Origin: Acidobacteriota bacterium | GTDB lineage: Bacteria; Acidobacteriota; Terriglobia; Acidiferrales; UBA7541 | DNA: 64,000 nucleotides | NCBI GenBank assembly: GCA_003223215.1 | Contig: QHYH01000083.1 | Location: forward strand, 20,651 to 84,650 | Reading direction: 5' to 3' | In this document: positions 8,071-25,873 of the stretch, one piece after another | Numbering within the stretch: position 1 is the first letter of the stretch | How the letters are laid out: each line of letters starts with the position of its first letter | Program-made: the position numbers and the translations under genes | Notes under the pieces: generated by a model | Told to the model about the DNA's origin: nothing | What the model saw: the letters and a program-made list of their open reading frames with translations, nothing else | Databases searched by the model: none

Positions 8071-9372
8071 CTAGCCCTGGTCCAGCCGCGCGAAGCGGCG
8101 AGCCTTCATCTCAAACCGGGCCAGGCTGCCAGCCGGCGCCACCGTCACCGCGGGACGCACAGAGAGCGCGCTATAGATGGCCTGCTCGACACGCGCGCGC
8201 ACATCCTCGGCATCGTTGCCGGAATGGACTTCGATTTGCACTTCGAGGTGTCCCATTTCTTGCCGCGTCTTGACCCTAACTTGGAATTCGTCAACGGCAG
8301 AAAACTGGCGGATGAGGTTTTCAATGGCCGTGGGATAGACATTCACACCGCGAATCGTAAACATGTCATCGGCGCGCCCGAGCAAGCCGCCATCAAAGCG
8401 CGCAAACGTCCGTCCGCAAGCACACGGGCTGAGATTCAGCCGTACCAGATCGCCGGTGCGATAACGAATCACCGGGAATCCCGGGCGTCCCAGATTGGTG
8501 ATGACCAACTCCCCAGTTTCACCAGGCTGGACTTCTTTGCCGGTCTGCGGATCGATCACTTCGGGGATAAACTCGCTCTCGATGACGTGAATTCCCTTGG
8601 GCTGAAGTTCGCATTCGAAGCTATGCGCGCCTACTTCCGAAGCGCCCGCGTGGTCGAAGCACTTCGCATGCCACGCCACTTCAATGCGCGCCTTCGTTTG
8701 CGCCACGTTCGCGCCCGGCTCTCCCGCGTGGATCAGCGCTCGCACCGGGATGGAACGCAAATCAAAGTTTTGTTCGCGGGCAACTTCCGCCAGCCGCAGC
8801 GCATAAGTGGGCGTGCAACAAACCACGGTGGCCCCGAGATCGCGCATCATGTGAAGCCGTTCGAGCGAACCCCATCCGCCACCCGGAATCATCATCGCGC
8901 CGAGCTGCCTGACTCCTTCCACCGCCGCCCAGAATCCAATGAAGGGACCAAACGAGAAGGGCAAAAACACGCGATCGCTCCGGGTTACGCCCGCGCCCCG
9001 CAAAACGAACCTCCAGCATTGCCCCCACCATGCCCAGCTCTCGGGAGTGTCCACGACGCGCAAGGGCATGCCGGTAGTTCCGGAAGTCTGATGCACGCGC
9101 GAGTAAGCTTCGGGAGGAAAAGTCGCATTCGTCCCGAAGGGAGGTGCCTCGTCCTGCGCACGCACGAGCTCGGATTTGTAGGTGAACGGGAGCTTGCGAA
9201 GGTCCGCGAGCGAGCGCAGCTCGTCGGGGGCCACGCCCGCTTCACGCCACTTCCCGGTGTAAAAGCGGTTGCGCGCAAAAAGGAGGCGAAGCAACTCCCG
9301 GAGCTTTTTCGCCTGCACATCGCGCAGTTTTTCCCTCGGCGCGTTCTCCACGCTCTGTTGTTCGAGGGGCAT
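8071..9372 (-). CDS. PaaK-type aryl-CoA ligase (AMP-forming), probably (hydroxy)benzoate-CoA ligase
   Basis: From the ATG at 9372 this is a 433-residue phenylacetate-CoA ligase-family enzyme. Visible motifs are HQTSGTTGMPLRV (P-loop-like, around 100), IHAGEPGAN, GASEVGAHSFEC, YRTGDLVRL and the C-terminal lid DGGLLGRADDMFTIRGVNVYP. The family forms acyl-CoA from an aryl acid, ATP and CoA through an acyl-adenylate. Between hcr and box genes, the natural substrate is benzoate or 4-hydroxybenzoate (inference); phenylacetate cannot be excluded from sequence. Canonical box clusters use a different ligase type (BclA/BadA-like). The open frame extends to a GTG at 9420, but the ATG at 9372 fits the family N-terminus better. 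Confidence 0.82.
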   Translation of the reverse strand: MPLEQQSVENAPREKLRDVQAKKLRELLRLLFARNRFYTGKWREAGVAPDELRSLADLRKLPFTYKSELVRAQDEAPPFGTNATFPPEAYSRVHQTSGTTGMPLRVVDTPESWAWWGQCWRFVLRGAGVTRSDRVFLPFSFGPFIGFWAAVEGVRQLGAMMIPGGGWGSLERLHMMRDLGATVVCCTPTYALRLAEVAREQNFDLRSIPVRALIHAGEPGANVAQTKARIEVAWHAKCFDHAGASEVGAHSFECELQPKGIHVIESEFIPEVIDPQTGKEVQPGETGELVITNLGRPGFPVIRYRTGDLVRLNLSPCACGRTFARFDGGLLGRADDMFTIRGVNVYPTAIENLIRQFSAVDEFQVRVKTRQEMGHLEVQIEVHSGNDAEDVRARVEQAIYSALSVRPAVTVAPAGSLARFEMKARRFARLDQG

Positions 9373-9488
9373 CACGGCGTGTTCCGATTCTCGCGATCTT
9401 CGCGCTCGTCGAAACGGCACGTCTAACCTAACCTACACTCGTTTCCAGTTGTTCGAACGGCGCGAGCGAAATCCGGAGGAAATCCGCT

Positions 9489-10337
9489 TCACTTCGGGAA
9501 CAGCCGCGTGGCATTGTCATAAAGAATTTTCCTCTTGGCGGCTTCCGCTATCGGCAGCGCCTTGAATTTCTCGATGTTCCCTTTGATCTCGGGAACCCCG
9601 GGGCCCGGCCAGTCGGTGCCCCACAAAACCTTGTCGGCGATCTCCTCGATCCGCGGAAAATATGCCAGCAATTTTTGCGGCGGGATGCCGGAAATGTCCA
9701 TGTACATGTTTTTGTGACGGCGCACGAGAAAAAACGCCTCGTTCATCCACAGCGGCCTGCCACCGTGCGCCAGAATAACCACCAAATTCGGGTAATCGAC
9801 CGAGACGTCGTCGCACAGCATCGGCTGCGCATGCAGATTTCGCGCTCCCGGGAAGATCGAAGTTCCGGTGTGGATCATGATCGGCAAGCCATGCGCTTGC
9901 GCGCGCTCGTAGACCGCGGCCAACCCGCGATTTCCGTCCAGGTAGTCGTTTGGCGAGAGCGCCTGGTGAGAAGGGTGCATCTTGATGGCGCGAATTCCGA
10001 GCTTGGCAAGACGGTCGACTTCGGCCCCGGGATCCCGAACCGTTCCGGGGAGAACTCCGCCGAACGCGATGAGGCGGTCCGGCGCCGCGCTGCAGTATTG
10101 CGCGCTCCAGTCGTTCACCTCGGGCGTGAAGCCGATAATTCGCGGAGCGACGTAGTTGATGAGCCCGGCGCGTTCCACACCAAGCGTGTCCAGAAATGCG
10201 AGGAAGGCTTTGGGATCGGCGCAATAGCGCTCGACGTCCGCGTAGTCCCTGCGCCCCTTCTTCATCAACTCCATCGCGGAGGGCTTCATCATGCTATACG
10301 GCATGATATGAACGTGAATGTCGATGATCGGCTGCAC
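9489..10337 (-). CDS. Amidohydrolase-2 (ACMSD-like) family metal-dependent hydrolase or decarboxylase
   Basis: A 282-residue TIM-barrel protein with the HxH pair near the N-terminus (DIHVHIMP), a barrel lysine region (IRAIKMHPSHQAL), a histidine in MIHTGTSIFPG, a second in ILAHGGRPLW and the closing aspartate in LWGTDWPGPG. These are the metal ligands of the amidohydrolase-2/ACMSD family, which hydrolyses lactones or decarboxylates aromatic acids. It follows boxB by 44 bp on the same strand, so a role in the box pathway or in delivering an aromatic acid to it is likely. The substrate is unknown. The start is a GTG at 10337 with GGCGGA upstream. Confidence 0.8.
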   Translation of the reverse strand: MQPIIDIHVHIMPYSMMKPSAMELMKKGRRDYADVERYCADPKAFLAFLDTLGVERAGLINYVAPRIIGFTPEVNDWSAQYCSAAPDRLIAFGGVLPGTVRDPGAEVDRLAKLGIRAIKMHPSHQALSPNDYLDGNRGLAAVYERAQAHGLPIMIHTGTSIFPGARNLHAQPMLCDDVSVDYPNLVVILAHGGRPLWMNEAFFLVRRHKNMYMDISGIPPQKLLAYFPRIEEIADKVLWGTDWPGPGVPEIKGNIEKFKALPIAEAAKRKILYDNATRLFPK

Positions 10338-10381
10338 AAAATTCCGCCTTTACCGGGAGACCGCGCGAGCTTTGCTGGCCA

Positions 10382-11806
10382 TCAGTTGAAACGGACGTAT
10401 TCGAAATGCAGGGGCTGGTTGTTGATGCCGCGGAGCGGCGGCGCAATCCAGTTCGCAAACTTTCCCGGCTCGGTCACCCGGCCGCTCATCAGCGACTGCA
10501 CGAAGGCGTAGTCTTGCGGACTTGGCAGCCATTCGAATTCATGCTTTTTCCACGCCTCTTCGGTCAGTGCTTCGCCTTCGGGGCTGATGAACAGGCCGGC
10601 AAAGTTTCCAATTTCGCGATGAAAGCCTTTGTGCGGCAGGGTCAGGCGGAAGGGAATGCCGGCTTGATCGATCACTCGTTGCCAGCGGCGGACGCCGTCG
10701 GCAATCTCGTCGATGTAGTCGTCGCGCAGCCGCTCGTTCAGTGCCGTCAGCGCCGGAACCGTCTTGGTCACGATCTTGCCGCCCACGACCTCCGAGACGG
10801 GATAAACAGCACCGCTAAGCACGTGATCGTCCTCGAGCTTCGTCTCGCGGAAGCGTCCTTTCAGGCCGCTGGTGAAGTAATTCGCCGCGTTGGAGGAAAC
10901 ATCGGAGCCGTAAAGGTCCAGCGTGACGCTATAGTGGAAGTTCAGGTATTTCTGGATGGTCTCTAGGTCGATCACTCCCAGCGCGCGCAGGTCGGCAGGA
11001 TCTTCGACCTTATTCTCCTTCATCACTTCGCAGGTTCGTTGAATAATGCGGCTTACGCCGGTTTCACCCACGAACATGTGATGGGCTTCCTCGGTCAGCA
11101 TGAAGCGGCAGGTGCGCGCAAGCGGATCGAAGCCCGATTCCGCCAAAGCACAAAGCTGGAATTTTCCGTCGCGGTCGGTAAAAAACGTGAACATGTAAAA
11201 CGCCAGCCAGTCAGGCGTCGGTTCATTGAAGGCGCCGAGGATGCGCGGATTGTCGGTATCGCCGGAGCGCCGCGCGAGCAACGCTTCCGCTTCTTCGCGC
11301 CCGTCGCGCCCGAAGTAGCGATGCAGCAGATAGACCATGGCCCACAAATGGCGCCCTTCTTCGACGTTCACCTGAAAAATGTTCCGCAGGTCATAGAGAG
11401 ACGGACAGGACAACCCCAGCATTTTCTGCTGTTCGACCGAAGCGGGCTCCGTGTCGCCTTGCGTCACGATGATGCGCCGCAGCGTCGAGCGATATTCCCC
11501 GGGCACCTCTTGCCATGCGGGCTGACCCTTGTGCGTCCCGAAATTCACCTGCCGGTTTTCATCGCGCGGCTGCAAGAAAACTCCCCAGCGGTATTCCGGC
11601 ATTTTCACATAATCGAATTGCGCCCACCCGTCCGGCTCCACGCTTATCGCCGTGCGCAGGTAGACGTCGTAGTTGCGGCTTTCGGCGGGCCCCATGTCGT
11701 ACCACCAGCCGAGAAACGCCGGCTGCCAATGCTCCAGCGCGCGTTGCAACACGCGGTCTCTTCCCAAATCGACGTTGTTTGGAATTTTTTCCGTGTAATT
11801 GATCAT
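10382..11806 (-). CDS. boxB: Benzoyl-CoA 2,3-epoxidase, diiron component
   Basis: From the ATG at 11806, preceded by GAGGGAAG, the protein is 474 residues, close to the known BoxB length. It is a class I diiron enzyme: E120, E150-x2-H153 (VEEGRHLW), D211 and E240-x2-H243 (TEEAHHMF) fit the ferritin-like ligand layout as I recall it for BoxB. The enzyme uses O2 and electrons to epoxidise benzoyl-CoA at C2-C3. It lies 32 bp downstream of boxC and 44 bp upstream of the amidohydrolase. The open frame runs up to 11854 inside boxC, but that extension lacks a ribosome-binding site. The partner reductase BoxA is not encoded in this window. Confidence 0.95.
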   Translation of the reverse strand: MINYTEKIPNNVDLGRDRVLQRALEHWQPAFLGWWYDMGPAESRNYDVYLRTAISVEPDGWAQFDYVKMPEYRWGVFLQPRDENRQVNFGTHKGQPAWQEVPGEYRSTLRRIIVTQGDTEPASVEQQKMLGLSCPSLYDLRNIFQVNVEEGRHLWAMVYLLHRYFGRDGREEAEALLARRSGDTDNPRILGAFNEPTPDWLAFYMFTFFTDRDGKFQLCALAESGFDPLARTCRFMLTEEAHHMFVGETGVSRIIQRTCEVMKENKVEDPADLRALGVIDLETIQKYLNFHYSVTLDLYGSDVSSNAANYFTSGLKGRFRETKLEDDHVLSGAVYPVSEVVGGKIVTKTVPALTALNERLRDDYIDEIADGVRRWQRVIDQAGIPFRLTLPHKGFHREIGNFAGLFISPEGEALTEEAWKKHEFEWLPSPQDYAFVQSLMSGRVTEPGKFANWIAPPLRGINNQPLHFEYVRFN

Positions 11807-11838
11807 GACTTCCCTCAGTCTTTTCCGGAATCTTTCCG

Positions 11839-13521
11839 TTAGACTTTTTCCCAATCGAATTTCACTGGCGCGCCCGTGCCATAGACCTTCAACGCGCCGC
11901 TGGGTCCGACGGCGTTCGGCCGGATGAAGATCCAGTTCTGCCAGGCCGACAAACGGCCAAAAATCCGAGTTTCCGGTGTTTCCTTTGGGCCAAACCGCAA
12001 GTTGGCCTCAAGACCCGTCAGCGCATCGGGAGATTGCGCCGCGCGCGATTCCATCGCTTGGCGAATTTCATCTTCCCAGTCGAGATCATCGGGCGCAGCG
12101 GTGACCAGACCGGCTTCCAGGGCCTCGCGCGGGGAAAGTTTCTTTGCGATTTGCCCGCGTAACCATGCGATATGCGCCTGATCCTCGTAGAAGCGCGCCG
12201 CCAGCCGCGATAGGTGATTGGCCATCGGCAGCGGTCCGAAGTTCATCTCCGAAAGCGTGATGGTGGTCCCGCTCGCGCTTTCTTCGCTATCCCGCATATA
12301 GATGCGGTCCGCCGCCAGAGCCAGTTCGAGCAGCGAGCCCGCGAAACAGGAACCCGGCTCGGCGATGGCATAAAGGGAGCGCGACGCCACTTCCAGCCGC
12401 GCGAAGGTGCGCCTCATCCTTCCCAGGACTTCGCGCACGAACCAGTTGTCCTGCCGGCTCAAGAGCAATTTGTCGATCGCCAGGACCGCCTCCGGGCTCC
12501 CGGCCGTCTTCATGACCCACAGCCCCAATTCGAGTTCGTTGGTGCGCAGGCTCAAGATGGCGTCGTCGAGCTCGCGCGCCATTTGCAGCGGCCACCAGTG
12601 GGCACCTGCCTCGAGGGCCGTTTCGACCGTCTGCTCGCTCGACCCTTCCGGCGCACGCACGGTAATCGTCGCGGTGCGCCCCGACCGGTTGCACTGCACG
12701 TCCACGTATTCGTAATGCAGGCCCGCGTGGTCCGCGATTTTCTTTAGCGGCGCGAGCGGCACGCCTTTTGCATCCACGGGTCGATCGGAGGATTCGGCAA
12801 GCTTCAGCGCCCGCTGCTTGACATGTTCGGCAAACTGTTGCGGCTTGACGATCTCATCCACCAAGCCCCAATCTTTGGCTCGCTGCCCGCGTACGCCGTC
12901 CTGATTGGTGCAGAACATGTCGGCAAGGTCTTTGCGCACTTTTCTCTTGTCGGTCAGACGCGTCAGCCCGCCCGTTCCCGGAAGAACTCCCAGCAGGGGC
13001 AGCTCCGGCAGGCTCACGGCGGATGAACGGTCGTCGACAAGGATGATTTCGTCGCAGGCCAGAGCCAGCTCATACCCGCCGCCCGCAGTGGTTCCATTGC
13101 ACGCGGCGAGAAACTTCAGTCCCGAGTATCGGCTCGCATCTTCGATGCCTATCCGCGTTTCATTGGTGAACTTGCAGAAATTTACCTTCCAGGCGTGCGA
13201 GGAAAGGCCCAGCATGTAGATGTTGGCACCCGAGCAAAAAATGCGGTTCTTGGCACTCGAAAAAACCACCGAGCGGATTTCCGGATGCTCAAACCGGATT
13301 CTTTCGAGCGCGTCGTGAAGTTCGATATCCACTCCGAGGTCATAGGAATTCAGCTTCAGCTTGTAGCCGGGACGAATCCCGCCGTCTTCGGCGACGTCCA
13401 TCGTGAGCGTCGCCACCGGAGGATCGAAGGAAAGCCGCCAGTGCTTGTAGCGCGAAGGCTCGGTCTGATAATCCACTGCGGCTGGTTTGGTCTTTGCCTC
13501 TTGACTAACCGCTACGTCCAC
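11839..13521 (-). CDS. boxC: 2,3-epoxybenzoyl-CoA dihydrolase (ring opening), BoxC
   Basis: This 560-residue protein has two crotonase-type halves. The first contains IFCSGANIYMLGLSSHAWKVNFCKFTNE and the oxyanion-hole segment ACNGTTAGGGYELALACDEI; the second contains FAGSLLELALAADRIYM. This doubled architecture and length are characteristic of BoxC, which hydrolyses the ring of 2,3-epoxybenzoyl-CoA to 3,4-dehydroadipyl-CoA semialdehyde and formate. The gene starts 9 bp after the boxR stop and ends 32 bp before boxB, so boxR-boxC-boxB form one operon. Confidence 0.95.
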   Translation of the reverse strand: MDVAVSQEAKTKPAAVDYQTEPSRYKHWRLSFDPPVATLTMDVAEDGGIRPGYKLKLNSYDLGVDIELHDALERIRFEHPEIRSVVFSSAKNRIFCSGANIYMLGLSSHAWKVNFCKFTNETRIGIEDASRYSGLKFLAACNGTTAGGGYELALACDEIILVDDRSSAVSLPELPLLGVLPGTGGLTRLTDKRKVRKDLADMFCTNQDGVRGQRAKDWGLVDEIVKPQQFAEHVKQRALKLAESSDRPVDAKGVPLAPLKKIADHAGLHYEYVDVQCNRSGRTATITVRAPEGSSEQTVETALEAGAHWWPLQMARELDDAILSLRTNELELGLWVMKTAGSPEAVLAIDKLLLSRQDNWFVREVLGRMRRTFARLEVASRSLYAIAEPGSCFAGSLLELALAADRIYMRDSEESASGTTITLSEMNFGPLPMANHLSRLAARFYEDQAHIAWLRGQIAKKLSPREALEAGLVTAAPDDLDWEDEIRQAMESRAAQSPDALTGLEANLRFGPKETPETRIFGRLSAWQNWIFIRPNAVGPSGALKVYGTGAPVKFDWEKV

Positions 13522-13530
13522 ACCGTCCTC

Positions 13531-14442
13531 CTATTGCAAATTCGCTTGCAACGTCGCTTTTAGTTTTGCAAAACTCTCTTCCACGGACGCTCCCGAAGTA
13601 TCCAGCACCACGTCGGCTTTCCGGTAGCGCGGTTCGCGGGCCTCCAAGATACGGCGCAAATCTTCCATGGCCTGATCGTTCGCCGCCATGGGACGAACAT
13701 CGCCCTGCGCCACGACCCGCGACATGTGTTCTTCCGGCCGCGCCTTGATCCACACGGTGAAGCAGTGGGAAAGGAGATAATCAAAAGTCTCTTTTTCCGA
13801 GACGATCCCGCCTCCCGTGGACACCACCGCGCGCTCGTTCTCTTTCAGCACCTTTTCCAGTGTCCGCTTCTCCATCGCGCGAAAACCGGCTTGCCCGTAG
13901 AGAGAGAAAATCTCGCCGAGGGGCATTCCCGTATCTCTCTCGATTTCGCTATCGAGTTCGACGAAGCGCTGGTTTGATTCCGCGGCCAGCCTTGCTCCGA
14001 GCGTAGATTTGCCCGCCCCGCGCATCCCAATCAGGGCGATGCGCATCCGGCGCATCTTCTCTTCGTGGCCAAAGTCGCGCATCAGCCGAAAGACCACATC
14101 CTCGAGGCGGTGCTGAGGCAGGCGCTCGAGAAATCTTTGGATCAATCTCTTTTCCGCCGGCTCGTCGGTTTGCGGCAGAAACAAGCTGGCCATGGGCACC
14201 TGGAGCGCCCCGGCGATCCTCTCGAGCAACACGACCGAGATGTTTCCTTCGCCGGCCTCCAGTTGCGCGAGGTGGCGTTCGGAAACGTCGGCTTGTTGTG
14301 ACACCTGCTTGCGGGTCAGGCCGCGGCGGTTCCTCGATTCGCGCACACGCCGGCCAAGAGAGAGGAGAAAATCGCCGTTCTCAGACGTTCCTGTCGGAGG
14401 TAAAGTAGGACCCTTGGATGGCGTGGTTGTCGGAGGCGCCAT
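13531..14442 (-). CDS. boxR: XRE/shikimate-kinase-like fusion regulator of benzoyl-CoA metabolism (BoxR/BzdR type)
   Basis: A 303-residue protein from the ATG at 14442. Residues about 27-83 form a Cro/C1-type helix-turn-helix (RRVRESRNRRGLTRKQVSQQ, then VSERHLAQLEAG). After a linker, a shikimate-kinase-like domain begins at about 133, with Walker A GMRGAGKS (139-146). This fusion is diagnostic of BzdR/BoxR, repressors that bind benzoyl-CoA through the kinase-like domain. The frame is open to 14511, but that extension overlaps the putative operator and promoter, and the shorter form matches BzdR length. It heads the boxR-boxC-boxB run and diverges from boxD, so it probably represses both sides until benzoyl-CoA accumulates. 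Confidence 0.92.
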   Translation of the reverse strand: MAPPTTTPSKGPTLPPTGTSENGDFLLSLGRRVRESRNRRGLTRKQVSQQADVSERHLAQLEAGEGNISVVLLERIAGALQVPMASLFLPQTDEPAEKRLIQRFLERLPQHRLEDVVFRLMRDFGHEEKMRRMRIALIGMRGAGKSTLGARLAAESNQRFVELDSEIERDTGMPLGEIFSLYGQAGFRAMEKRTLEKVLKENERAVVSTGGGIVSEKETFDYLLSHCFTVWIKARPEEHMSRVVAQGDVRPMAANDQAMEDLRRILEAREPRYRKADVVLDTSGASVEESFAKLKATLQANLQ

Positions 14443-14514
14443 AATGCAGAAGCACTGTACCGCATGCATTATAATACAAGGTAGGCGATGCTTGTCAATC
14501 TTAATATGCATTAT
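14441..14514. promoter_or_regulatory. Divergent boxR/boxD control region with three TGCATTAT boxes and a sigma-70-type promoter
   Basis: TGCATTAT occurs at 14465-14472 and 14507-14514, starts 42 bp apart, and inverted at 14441-14448. On the minus strand TTGACA (14498-14493) is followed after 16 bp by TATTAT (14476-14471), a good boxR promoter; TATAAT with a 19-bp spacer also exists (14473-14468). The middle box overlaps the -10 element. BzdR/BoxR regulators are known to recognise TGCA-containing repeats, so these are probable operators giving autoregulation and control of boxD. The boxD promoter itself is not clear. Confidence 0.7.
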
Positions 14515-22246: not shown

Positions 22247-22352
22247 GGCCGCGCTAGGAATTGTAGCGTGAGGGTCGGCGCAATTGAAGCGGTCCCGGCA
22301 GGCCCGGGCCAATCGGACGCAACGAAACCTGTTTTCGATTCATCTGAGGGGT

Positions 22353-24026
22353 ATGCCGAAACCAGTTTTGCTCACGGTCGACGACGACCCGGAAGTCCTT
22401 CGTGCCATCGAGCGCGATTTGCGCAGCCGCTATGCGGACCGCTACCGGGTCATGCGCGCGAACTCCGGCAGTGCTGCCATAACCACGCTGCGCGAACTAA
22501 AAGCCCGCAACAATCCGGTCGCCCTCCTTCTTGCCGACCAACGCATGCCGCAAATGGACGGCGTCGGCTTTCTCTCCGAAGCCATGGAACTTCATCCGCT
22601 CGCCAAGCGCGCCCTGCTTACCGCCTATGCGGACACCAGCGCGGCCATCGACGCCATCAACGAAGCCCGCGTCCACTACTACTTCATGAAGCCCTGGGAC
22701 CCCCCTGAAGAAAAGCTGTATCCCGCCCTGGACGACCTGCTTCAGGAATGGATCTCGACCTATCGTCAGCCGTATGAGGGTATCCGCGTACTCGGCACGC
22801 GCTGGTCCAATCGCTCTTACGAACTGCGCGATTTTCTCGCCCGCAACCAGGTCCCCTATCAATGGATCGACGTGGAGCTGGCCGAGAGCGATCCGGAAGT
22901 GCGGGGTCTGGTTAGCTCGCTTGGCCCTGAAGTGCAATCCCTTCCGCTCGTGTTGTTCCCCGACGGGGCGCGCCTCGCCGAGGCCCTGCTGCCCGCCGTC
23001 GCGGACAAAATTGGCCTCCGCACCCGCGCGCAAACCAATTTTTACGATCTCGTCATCGTAGGAGGCGGTCCCGCCGGACTTGCCGCCGCCGTGTACGGCG
23101 CGAGCGAAGGCTTGCGTACCGTGATCATCGAGCGCGAAGCTCCTGGCGGCCAAGCGGGCCTGAGCTCGCGCATCGAAAATTATCTCGGCTTTCCGTCCGG
23201 CCTTACGGGCAGCGATTTGGCCCGTCGCGCGGTGGCTCAAGCGAAACGTTTTGGAGTGGAAATTCTTTCTCCGCAAGAAGCCATCGATGTGCGAGTCGAA
23301 GGCCCGTATCGCTACTTGAAACTGGCCGATGGCTCGGAGATTTCCTGCCACGTCCTTCTTCTCGCGATGGGCGTTCAGTGGCGCACCCTCGACGTTCCCG
23401 GGATCGATCGCCTGCGAGGCGCCGGGGTTTATTATGGCGGGGGAACATCGGAAGCCATTTCCTGCAAAGGCGAAACCGTGTATGTCATCGGCGGAGCGAA
23501 TTCCGCAGGCCAGGCGGCGATGCATTTCTCCAAGTTCGCCGAGAAGGTGGTCATGCTGGTTCGCGGCAACTCCCTCGCCAGCACCATGTCTCACTACCTG
23601 ATCGAGCAGATCGAAAAGACTCCCAAGATCGAGGTGTGGACGCGGTCGAGCATCGTGGGCGTTCACGGCGACGCGCGCCTCAGCGGCATCACCGTTCTGT
23701 GCTGCCCTACCGGCGAAACCAAACAGTTGCCCGCCAGCAGTCTTTTCATCTTCATCGGCGCCCAGCCTCGCACGGAATGGCTCGGCAACGTCGTCGCGCG
23801 CGACGACCGTGGCTTCATCCTTTCCGGCCCGGATCTTATCCGCGATGGCAAAAGGCCCGCGTCGTGGACGCTCAGCCGCGATCCCAGCTTGCTCGAAACC
23901 AGTGTTCCCGGAATTTTCGTCGTTGGCGACGTGCGCCACGGGTCGGTCAAGCGGGTCGCTTCCGGCGTGGGCGAAGGCGCAGTCGTCGTACAATTCATGC
24001 ACCAGTATCTGGCCAAGGTGCAGTGA
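22353..24026 (+). CDS. Response-regulator receiver fused to a thioredoxin/glutaredoxin-like domain and a thioredoxin-reductase-like flavoprotein
   Basis: A 557-residue fusion from the ATG at 22353 (GAGGGG upstream). Residues 3-125 are a receiver with acidic pocket D10-D12, phospho-acceptor D62 (LLLADQRMPQMDG), T90 and K113. Residues about 143-215 resemble a thioredoxin/glutaredoxin fold, but WSNRSY stands where a CxxC would be. Residues about 230-550 are a FAD/NAD(P) two-dinucleotide-fold domain (DLVIVGGGPAGLAAAVYG, VYVIGGANSAGQAAMHFS, GIFVVGDVRHGSVKRVASGVGEG). The CATC of true thioredoxin reductases is replaced by a GVYYGGGTSEA segment. So it probably oxidises or reduces something other than a thioredoxin disulfide, under phosphorylation control. 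The kinase gene follows after 140 bp. Confidence 0.88.
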   Translation: MPKPVLLTVDDDPEVLRAIERDLRSRYADRYRVMRANSGSAAITTLRELKARNNPVALLLADQRMPQMDGVGFLSEAMELHPLAKRALLTAYADTSAAIDAINEARVHYYFMKPWDPPEEKLYPALDDLLQEWISTYRQPYEGIRVLGTRWSNRSYELRDFLARNQVPYQWIDVELAESDPEVRGLVSSLGPEVQSLPLVLFPDGARLAEALLPAVADKIGLRTRAQTNFYDLVIVGGGPAGLAAAVYGASEGLRTVIIEREAPGGQAGLSSRIENYLGFPSGLTGSDLARRAVAQAKRFGVEILSPQEAIDVRVEGPYRYLKLADGSEISCHVLLLAMGVQWRTLDVPGIDRLRGAGVYYGGGTSEAISCKGETVYVIGGANSAGQAAMHFSKFAEKVVMLVRGNSLASTMSHYLIEQIEKTPKIEVWTRSSIVGVHGDARLSGITVLCCPTGETKQLPASSLFIFIGAQPRTEWLGNVVARDDRGFILSGPDLIRDGKRPASWTLSRDPSLLETSVPGIFVVGDVRHGSVKRVASGVGEGAVVVQFMHQYLAKVQ

Positions 24027-24166
24027 GGAGCACGCCCGGGCCTCGCATGGAGGAGTTGCAAAATGCAGGAATTTCACAGAAGGGTTTGCGAAGCGACAAA
24101 AAATGCCGCCATTGAATTTTGCCGTTTTTCTGATTTGAGACTTAGAGCTCAGGACCTACAACGTTA

Positions 24167-25576
24167 ATGAGCGCGCCGGCCGAGCAAGCCCGCATCGAAG
24201 CCCTGGTAGCCGACTTGCGCAAAGTCGCGGCATTCGCCGATCAGCACCAGGATGACCTGGAATGGTTTGTCTCGCAGTCCGGGGAGCTCCGAACACCGGT
24301 TGGCGAAATCACGGTCAAGGAAGGATCCCCGGCTGAGGCCATGTTCGTCATCCTGGAAGGAGAATTGCGTGCTCGCCGCGAAATGGGGCCAGCCGGCAGC
24401 CCTGTCTATACCGCGCATGCCGGGGACGTTACCGGCGTCCTGCCGTTTTCCCGAATGAAGACCTACTCGGTGACCGTGCGCGCGGTGCTCCCCATGCGCA
24501 CGCTGGCCTTTCCCGCCAGCAAATTCCCCGAGCTTTTCCAGCGCATGCCCGAGCTTTCCCGGCGCTTGGTGGGATTGCTGACCGATCGCGTTCGCAACGT
24601 CACGCGCGACGAGCAGCAACGCGAAAAATTGGCCGCGCTTGGCAAACTGTCGGCCGGTCTGGCCCACGAATTGAACAATCCGTCCGCGGCCGCCCGGCGC
24701 ACCGCAGCCGCGCTCCACGACTGCCTCGAGCGCCTCCGCTCCGCCAGCCGCAACTCCGCGCTCCGGGCCGAAGACTGTGGATTGCTTGCCCAGCGCGAGG
24801 ATGAAATTCGCGCTTCCCTGAAGCCCGCGGATTACCACGACGAATTCGCCCGCGCCGATCGCCAGGATGCCATCCAGTCGTGGCTTGAGGGACGCGGCGT
24901 CGCCGAGGCTTGGAAGCTCGCTCCGCTCCTTGCCGATGCGAATCTTACCGACGAGCATCTCGAGAGATTTGCGGGAACGGCCGGCGCTGCGCTCGGACCG
25001 GAACTGATCCGCTTTGCCACGCTCCTTGAAATGGAACGCATCGCTTCGGAACTTGACAACAGCACCGCTCGCATCTCCGGACTGATCAAGGCCATCAAGG
25101 AATACTCCTTCATGGACCAGGCTCCGCTCCAGGAAGTGGACATCAAGTCGAGCCTCGAAACCACATTGACCATCATGCATCACAAACTGAAGCGCGGCAT
25201 CACCGTGACCCGCGAGTATGCTCCGGACCTGCCAAAAGTTATGGCTTATGGCAGCGAACTGAATCAGGTCTGGACCAATCTCATTGACAATGCCGCCGAC
25301 GCCATGGGCGACACGGGAAAGCTTCTCGTGCGCGCCGTCCGCGAAAATGAATACGTGCTCGTAGAAATCGCGGACAACGGTCCGGGCATTCCTTCCGAAG
25401 TGCAGTCCCGCATCTTCGAGCCGTTCTTCACCACCAAAGAGGTGGGCGAAGGCACCGGGCTCGGCCTGGACGTGGTGCACCGCATCGTCCAGAAAATGCG
25501 CGGTCTCGTCACCGTCAAGTCCGTCCCGGGCGACACTCGTTTCCAGGTGCGTATTCCGATGCAAGCCACGATGTGA
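24167..25576 (+). CDS. Histidine kinase with N-terminal cyclic-nucleotide-binding-like domain
   Basis: A 469-residue soluble kinase. Residues about 20-130 look like a cNMP-binding/Crp-type beta roll (GEITVKEGSPAEAMFVILEGELRAR). A HisKA-type segment follows with phospho-acceptor H167 (LGKLSAGLAHELNNPSAAARR), then a helical insert (about 180-300) and a HATPase_c domain with N box NQVWTNLIDNAADAM, G1 DNGPGIP, F box FEPFFTTK and G2 GEGTGLGLDVV. There are no membrane segments, so the stimulus is cytoplasmic, probably a nucleotide or partner protein. The natural partner is the receiver fusion 140 bp upstream; the zinc-finger gene begins 30 bp downstream. Confidence 0.9.
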   Translation: MSAPAEQARIEALVADLRKVAAFADQHQDDLEWFVSQSGELRTPVGEITVKEGSPAEAMFVILEGELRARREMGPAGSPVYTAHAGDVTGVLPFSRMKTYSVTVRAVLPMRTLAFPASKFPELFQRMPELSRRLVGLLTDRVRNVTRDEQQREKLAALGKLSAGLAHELNNPSAAARRTAAALHDCLERLRSASRNSALRAEDCGLLAQREDEIRASLKPADYHDEFARADRQDAIQSWLEGRGVAEAWKLAPLLADANLTDEHLERFAGTAGAALGPELIRFATLLEMERIASELDNSTARISGLIKAIKEYSFMDQAPLQEVDIKSSLETTLTIMHHKLKRGITVTREYAPDLPKVMAYGSELNQVWTNLIDNAADAMGDTGKLLVRAVRENEYVLVEIADNGPGIPSEVQSRIFEPFFTTKEVGEGTGLGLDVVHRIVQKMRGLVTVKSVPGDTRFQVRIPMQATM

Positions 25577-25606
25577 TTCACCCGGTGTAAAGCAAAGGAG
25601 ACCTCG

Positions 25607-25873
25607 ATGGCCGATACCTGCACGCATGTTGACCAGATTCGCAAAATTAAACCGAAGAGCGAGGGCTGCGAAGAGTGCCTCAAGATGGGAGACAGTTGGG
25701 TGCATCTGCGCCTGTGCTTGACTTGCGGCCATGTCGGCTGTTGCGATTCCTCGAAGAACAGGCACGCCACGAAGCATTTTCACACTACCAAGCATCCCGT
25801 AGTCCGCTCGCAAGAGCCGGGCGAAAACTGGATGTGGTGCTACGTCGACGAAGTTATGCTGGAAGCAGACTGA
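25607..25873 (+). CDS. Small UBP-type zinc-finger protein
   Basis: An 88-residue protein made almost entirely of a ZnF-UBP (BUZ) fold: C5/H7, C21/C24, C37/C40, H42, C45, H53, H57, H59 and H63 are spaced as in that domain (CEECLKMGDSWVHLRLCLTC, GHVGCCDSSKNRHATKHFHTTKHPV). In eukaryotes this domain binds the free C-terminal Gly-Gly of ubiquitin; in bacteria its ligand is not established to my knowledge. The start has AAGGAGA upstream. It lies 30 bp after the kinase gene, in the same direction, so it is probably part of the signalling module, perhaps as an adaptor that binds a protein C-terminus. Confidence 0.9.
   Translation: MADTCTHVDQIRKIKPKSEGCEECLKMGDSWVHLRLCLTCGHVGCCDSSKNRHATKHFHTTKHPVVRSQEPGENWMWCYVDEVMLEAD

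Follow-up and report, generated by a model that had tools for sequence, protein, structure and literature searches.

We analyzed a candidate signaling locus in a 64,000-nucleotide stretch of DNA from an Acidobacteriota bacterium (hereafter, the window, whose numbering is used throughout). Three consecutive genes on the + strand encode a receiver-flavoprotein fusion, a histidine kinase, and a small zinc-finger protein. Open reading frame (ORF) calls and Pfam matches place these genes at the positions given in an original prediction made from the sequence alone. The genes and their relevant features are as follows.

22353-24026, + strand: fusion of a REC receiver, a glutaredoxin-like domain, and a thioredoxin-reductase-like domain, 557 aa (ORF; Pfam Response_reg 9.8e-13, Pyr_redox_2 2.1e-32; AlphaFold2 mean pLDDT 86.5).
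22353-22760, + strand: REC receiver, residues 1-136 (D10, D11, D62, T90, and K113 conserved).
22536-22538, + strand: D62, predicted phospho-acceptor (alignment column; receiver-decay comparison).
22770-23030, + strand: cysteine-free glutaredoxin/mycoredoxin-like domain, residues 140-226 (profile match to 2lqo, E 1.2e-8; alignment columns; helix/strand order of the model).
23034-24023, + strand: thioredoxin-reductase-like FAD/NAD(P)H domain without CxxC, residues 228-557 (VIA-align to 4a5l; alignment columns).
24167-25576, + strand: histidine kinase with CRP-like sensor, DHp hairpin with three-helix cap, and HATPase domain, 469 aa (Pfam cNMP_binding 1.1e-9, HATPase_c 2.1e-24; model pLDDT 86.3).
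24665-24667, + strand: H167, predicted phosphorylated histidine (AHELNNP; H-box column 60/60).
25607-25873, + strand: zf-UBP zinc-finger protein of the bacterial type (CGHVGCCD), 88 aa (Pfam zf-UBP 1.5e-14; solved relative 2ida, E 5.1e-37).

The Pfam matches of all three proteins exceed the curated cut-offs, and the zf-UBP score of 54.4 bits (cut-off, 22.7 bits) confirms the predicted UBP zinc finger. We preferred the fusion start at 22353 to that of a longer TTG ORF at 22284, because relatives begin at 22353. A promoter scan of the locus returned no promoter-like sites, and a terminator scan returned one terminator-like site, within the kinase gene, a count below that in shuffled sequences. 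The source genome, an 8.8 Mb draft, contains a single zf-UBP match and a single full-length copy of the fusion. It also contains an ORF of cNMP, glutaredoxin, and reductase parts (L004; G000:C238 near 12621) that stops after 286 aa and holds only the start of the reductase part.

We examined the fusion in an alignment of 87 sequences, consisting of the window protein and those of 80 genome loci and 6 plasmid loci. The 80 loci lean towards the window, because they are the best-scoring 80 of at least 582 confirmed relatives. The receiver pocket is conserved (D62, 86/87; T90, 86/87, with one gap each; K113, 87/87), and D62 occupies the column of the phospho-acceptor aspartate, as had been predicted. 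The second domain, which the original prediction called thioredoxin-like, is indeed a thioredoxin-fold relative, but is more exactly glutaredoxin/mycoredoxin-like. Its best solved match, obtained with a profile from 23 sequences, is the glutaredoxin Rv3198.1 (2lqo), which we take to be a mycoredoxin. The WCxxC site of this domain reads WSxxS in the window (W151, S152, S155); across the fusions, the first position is Ser in 79/87 and Cys in 0/87, and the second is Ser in 67/87 and Cys in 2/87.

The reductase domain of the model superimposes on 4a5l with a Z score of 33.7 and 2.1 Å over 305 residues; the VIA-align rows mainly span residues 227-557 and therefore say little about the first two domains. 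The flavin-reducing conformer of the Lactococcus thioredoxin reductase (5mh4) is among the low-deviation matches, at 2.3 Å, whereas the flavin-oxidizing conformer (5mjk) lies at 7.2 Å; as a property of the model, this is weak evidence that the protein may be nearer the flavin-reducing form. The CxxC of the reductase site is absent in 87/87 fusions, and also on alignment to 7jyp. By contrast, the FAD and NAD(P)H sites look retained: E367, G380, N383-Q387, and R404 are invariant in the 87 fusions, and all of these except E367 are nucleotide-site residues. The prediction that both parts lack redox cysteines thus stands for the dithiol CxxC, absent at both sites in every fusion, but not for single cysteines, which are common at position 371 (75/87 fusions and 7/9 plasmid relatives without REC) and at position 332 (75%).

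Three established identities were rejected for this protein. It has the FAD/NAD(P)H folds of a thioredoxin-disulfide reductase without the redox CxxC, and it falls below every NCBIfam cut-off among the 25 families listed, including that of TRX_reduct (201.7 compared to 343.45 bits). It is not AhpF, as it lacks the CxxC pairs and scores far below the equivalog cut-off (152.6 compared to 502.9 bits). It is not an active glutaredoxin or mycoredoxin, as the homologous thioredoxin-fold domain has lost its active-site CxxC.

The kinase model consists of a CRP-like sensor (approximately residues 1-140), a long DHp hairpin, and a HATPase domain. The DHp hairpin (24548-25120, and in relatives) carries three extra helices (residues ≈201-257) between its two main helices in the model; no Pfam family matches this cap. 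Histidine-kinase cores were among the 50 Foldseek matches listed for the kinase model. In 60 paired kinases, the predicted H-box histidine H167 is present in 60/60, N375 and G405 in 57/60 each, and G431 in 58/60. The sensor scores 38.5 bits against the cNMP_binding cut-off of 27.5. However, the position of the cassette arginine, placed with a phosphate-binding cassette consensus and register that we assume for CRP, is Y100 in the window, and the five commonest residues there (V, A, S, F, and Y) together account for 42/60 kinases. The window sensor also lacks the cassette glutamate. A canonical cAMP-binding CRP/CAP sensor was therefore rejected; the predicted "cNMP-type" label holds for the fold and should not be read as cAMP binding.

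We compared gene neighborhoods in a phylum sample of 297 genomes, in which a REC-type place was defined by a score of at least 400 bits and a kinase was counted if it lay within 1 kb on the same strand. A kinase accompanied 35 of the 36 REC-type places, compared to 0 of the 36 places with other types of reductase. Among these other-type places, 30 encode a CRP-like domain within the reductase ORF itself, one (L206) has a degenerate receiver and lacks the glutaredoxin part, and five have no detected N-terminal domain; two of these five are at contig ends (L189, L207), and one (L215) has a CRP-like domain as a separate ORF in the locus. Moreover, the kinase is absent where the receiver has decayed. 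Among the 37 REC-bearing places (the 36 plus L206), D62, T90, and K113 are kept in 34, each of which has the kinase. The two receivers without D62 (Gly in L173 of G231; Ile in L206 of G071) have no kinase beside them, even at loose thresholds across 20 kb and 13 kb, respectively. In G121, the receiver is unreadable and the kinase is present; with G121 left out, the association of receiver decay with kinase absence gave a Fisher p of 0.0016.

The pairing extends beyond this phylum. Fifty-nine of the 80 named-genome loci have a same-strand kinase within 700 bp, downstream in 56 of the 59, with a median gap of 39 bp. A kinase accompanies the fusion in 9 of the ten best REC-type plasmid records (by annotation only in L167), which together with some others were drawn from 134 records with a match. 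On the Nostoc edaphicum record, the kinase closest to the fusion lies 2.6 kb off and starts with a receiver-like part. The kinase profile was built from 7 of 8 rows, leaving out one Nostoc receiver-kinase hybrid, and the structure alignments contained 45 fusions (the window and 44 of the 80) and 40 kinases (the window and 39 of 53 candidates). REC-fusions were found in Acidobacteria, Cyanobacteria, Chloroflexi, Actinobacteria, Deinococcota, Proteobacteria, Verrucomicrobia, and some archaeal assemblies. Thus, judged by gene neighborhoods, the kinase-flavoprotein pair is widespread in bacteria, and we infer, with good support, a kinase-receiver relay.

This interpretation was further supported by trees of 78 reductase cores (including 32 of the 87 REC rows) and of 64 sensor domains (including those of 26 of the 60 kinases). 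The 32 REC-fusions form one clade in the core tree (support 99/95) and in all 200 bootstrap trees. Sister to this clade are ten CRP-domain reductases and L206 (94/83); other CRP-domain and sensor-less forms lie further out. The sensor tree splits (100/99) into the ten sister-group sensors with the 26 kinase sensors, and 27 other reductase sensors with the CRP control. The ten nest inside the kinase sensors, and the kinase-sensor profile scores 81.7-112.2 bits on them, compared to 35-73.4 bits on the other reductase sensors. The simplest reading of these trees is that a kinase sensor moved onto a reductase and replaced the receiver; a transfer in the reverse direction, from reductase to kinase, would be the less simple reading. 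An exchange of sensors between kinase and reductase is expected if the kinase and the flavoprotein share one path. The core tree also bears on ancestry. One glutaredoxin-thioredoxin reductase fusion with both motifs intact (YWCPDC and CATC; L213, G015:C69) branches off outside every motif-less form (support for the other 76, 100/99; the branch to the plain thioredoxin reductase outgroup is long), which suggests that the motif-less family had a redox-active ancestor.

Together, these results lead us to propose a dedicated two-component system whose output, an NAD(P)H flavoprotein without disulfide chemistry, is gated by phosphorylation and docks on a zinc finger, a reading to which we assign a probability of roughly 0.6. 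The kinase, with a CRP-like sensor that is not of the canonical cAMP type, would autophosphorylate at H167 and pass the phosphate to D62 of the flavoprotein receiver. The flavoprotein itself would descend from a glutaredoxin-thioredoxin reductase stripped of both dithiol motifs. Phosphorylation would shift the seating of the receiver on the FAD/NAD(P)H module, thereby setting its activity or partner binding; electrons would pass from NAD(P)H via FAD to an acceptor that is not a protein disulfide. The zf-UBP protein would be an adaptor that docks the flavoprotein on a target. The comparisons among genomes support the coupling of kinase to receiver and the disappearance of the disulfide motifs; gating, docking, and non-disulfide turnover are what we infer beyond them.

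Several observations weigh against this proposal. The receiver-decay test includes just two degenerate receivers. Of the 80 REC-fusions, 21 lack a same-strand kinase within 700 bp, and their receivers are apparently intact where readable; these loci end at contig ends, have a same-strand kinase 0.9-2.6 kb away or a kinase on the opposite strand, or show none. In the phylum sample, 36 of 71 kinase-family places lie away from a fusion. The outgroup of the sensor tree is far removed (CRP branch, 2.8), and the reductase sensor domains were excised with a kinase-derived profile. Finally, no zf-UBP gene lies within 5 kb at 33 of the 36 REC-type places in the phylum, and none was found at 68 of the 80 loci, some of which end early.

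The absence of zf-UBP from most loci also favors the strongest alternative, that the zf-UBP gene is merely a neighbor in stress-gene clusters and stands outside the relay. In the same direction, 19 of 61 genomes with a UBP gene have no reductase-family member at the threshold used, and 4 of 11 plasmid UBP loci have no reductase gene nearby. However, a reductase-family member is present in 42 of the 61 UBP genomes, compared to 10 of 236 other genomes, and the genes overlap by 4 bp in Streptomyces and Tsukamurella. Moreover, zf-UBP is linked alike to REC-, CRP-type, and sensor-less reductases (7 of the 11 plasmid UBP loci, which are near a CRP-type or sensor-less gene, plus L045); some of these seven are in chaperone islands and some are accompanied by response regulators. 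A zf-UBP gene lies within 5 kb in 12 of the 80 loci, compared to about 0.003 per locus expected by chance, a crude estimate that ignores relatedness; in the phylum sample, the corresponding counts are 3 of 36 for REC-type places and 8 of 36 for other-type places. On this evidence, we judge a mere-neighbor role unlikely. The predicted three-gene order recurs in 7 of the 80 loci (L050, L051, L052, L065, L075, L114, and L119), in 2 of the 36 phylum places (the window and G125; at one further place, the finger is part of an antiporter), and in 3 of the 10 plasmid records (Streptomyces, Tsukamurella, and Nocardia), but is far from constant. Linkage is far above chance and yet not constant, and the unit is therefore best described as a two-gene core with an optional zinc finger. 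Thus, as far as gene order indicates, the zinc finger is a recurrent accessory and not a constant part. The prediction of a phosphorelay with a flavoprotein output that lacks disulfide chemistry is accordingly well supported by kinase adjacency, receiver decay, and sensor exchange, but the zinc finger is weaker as its third member.

The zinc finger keeps its metal ligands: C21 in 58 of 59 relatives, and C24, C37, C40, H53, and H57 in 59/59 each. An arginine of the eukaryotic ZnF-UBP domain (USP5/HDAC6) grips the C-terminus of ubiquitin. At the corresponding site, where USP16 has GR, all 59 distinct bacterial relatives have D, E, or N, and ubiquitin-type binding by the bacterial zf-UBP is therefore unlikely. 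In three plasmid stress islands (L049, L163, and L047; dnaK/grpE-clpB-trxA; Clp, Hsp20, HdeD, PsiE), zf-UBP occurs with a reductase gene, and in L033 (1480-2487) it is fused to a DisA-type DAC domain.

A further alternative is that the flavoprotein is not a true turnover enzyme and that the signal lies in the redox state of its flavin or in its NAD(P)H-bound state, which would make it a works-like counterpart of KefF; kinase and flavin would then be two inputs to one partner switch. This would fit the loss of both dithiol motifs and the presence, next to a REC-fusion, of CPA2 antiporters that have TrkA_N and end in a zf-UBP domain, as the third gene in L171 and divergently adjoining the fusion in L060. 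According to the available text of one study, KefF binds KefC and stabilizes an open hinge (PMC2920069). Against this alternative, the FAD and nucleotide sites look retained in the fusion, KefF binds FMN and belongs to another family, and the antiporter-UBP proteins are tied to the pair at these two loci only; two Deinococcus plasmid antiporters, which match in the zinc-finger part, lie in neighborhoods without an annotated reductase. We consider this alternative distinctly unlikely. For the gated-flavoprotein reading that we prefer, antiporters are one candidate target of docking; in relatives, Kef-type antiporters contain this finger as one of their own domains. A more far-reaching version, which we offer as speculative and still less probable, is that the targets are Kef-type K+/H+ antiporters, along with other proteins tagged with a zinc finger, and that a disulfide-dead, phosphorylation-gated glutaredoxin-reductase flavoprotein docks on them through this ubiquitin-type finger. 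It would then be a counterpart of KefF under two-component control, and one lineage would have short-circuited the relay by fusing the kinase sensor directly to the flavoprotein, where it takes over the site of the receiver.

A passive receiver, serving as a dimerization domain or phosphate sink while the true target of the kinase is another regulator, is very improbable: some loci have two such kinases and the family has further members outside fusion loci, but the kinase is missing where the receiver lost D62, and its kind of sensor sits directly on the reductase. The least probable alternative is that the protein is still a thiol reductase acting via a single cysteine, at 371 or 332, or via a separate thioredoxin, since C371, however common in fusions and in plasmid relatives without REC, is missing in 12/87 and is not at the CxxC position, and CxxC occurs in 0/87, even though trxA adjoins a CRP-type gene in Rhodococcus and Streptomyces islands.

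Beyond the kinase, no dominant third partner was found among 94 upstream and 97 downstream neighbor ORFs. The families listed included LtrA (3/97 downstream), Amylo-alpha-1,6-glucosidase (3/94 upstream), and zf-UBP (2/94 upstream). These ORFs were retained from 133 upstream and 129 downstream ORFs, the rest, mostly short, being dropped by eye; they were chosen by length, and some are in the wrong frame. In cyanobacterial plasmids (L041, L167, and L181), the REC-fusion comes after glgX and an AGE-family epimerase gene, and LtrA is downstream of the fusion in L041, L181, and a Deinococcus plasmid (L040). Elsewhere in the window (8071-14511, - strand), genes for an AMP-binding ligase, an enoyl-CoA hydratase-like protein, and a helix-turn-helix plus shikimate-kinase-like protein are clustered with a gene for a PaaA_PaaC-like protein, a weak match below the family cut-off; this cluster resembles what we take to be the aerobic benzoyl-CoA (box) cluster.

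The output of most two-component systems is a DNA-binding or second-messenger domain; here, a redox flavoprotein seems to be under direct control of the kinase, and an enzyme labeled thioredoxin reductase in databases cannot run that reaction by the usual route. The locus offers a clean test case for how a redox enzyme becomes a signaling output, and for what zf-UBP fingers do in bacteria. The REC-thioredoxin reductase combination itself is already in print, listed as "Mycobacterium-like" and reported from two Heimdallarchaeota (Galperin et al., 2018; PMC5847659). The available portion of that paper gives the same domain combination as found here and does not mention a lost CxxC, a glutaredoxin-like domain, a partner kinase, or zf-UBP. 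In the portions available, PMC2602986 counts zf-UBP among conserved hypothetical mini-proteins, and PMC13376213, PMC6599016, and PMC6584798 contain nothing on a kinase-flavoprotein-UBP system. The original prediction knew of no functional description, and our search of open-access papers likewise found no functional study of the kinase-flavoprotein system. A two-component system with an enzyme-derived flavoprotein output thus appears, as far as the available text of these sources goes, to lack a functional study.

Among known proteins, TrxB and AhpF share the FAD/NAD(P)H fold of the fusion, and AhpF also has an N-terminal thioredoxin-fold part. Unlike them, the fusion has a REC input and no catalytic CxxC in either part. 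The glutaredoxin Rv3198.1 is a sequence relative of the central domain, with WCxxC where the fusion has WSxxS. Also close are the CRP-domain proteins annotated as "cyclic nucleotide-binding domain-containing thioredoxin-disulfide reductase", which have the same motif-less glutaredoxin-reductase core and often a zf-UBP neighbor, but carry a CRP-like sensor on the enzyme, whereas the fusion has REC and a kinase. The solved zf-UBP relative 2ida belongs to the same bacterial family and was deposited as "Hypothetical protein", with no function assigned. The nearest working analogy is KefF, a flavoprotein that controls the CPA2 antiporter KefC; the likeness is one of working only, as KefF belongs to another flavoprotein family, the KefF-KefC system has neither phosphorelay nor zf-UBP, and the antiporter link here consists of two loci.

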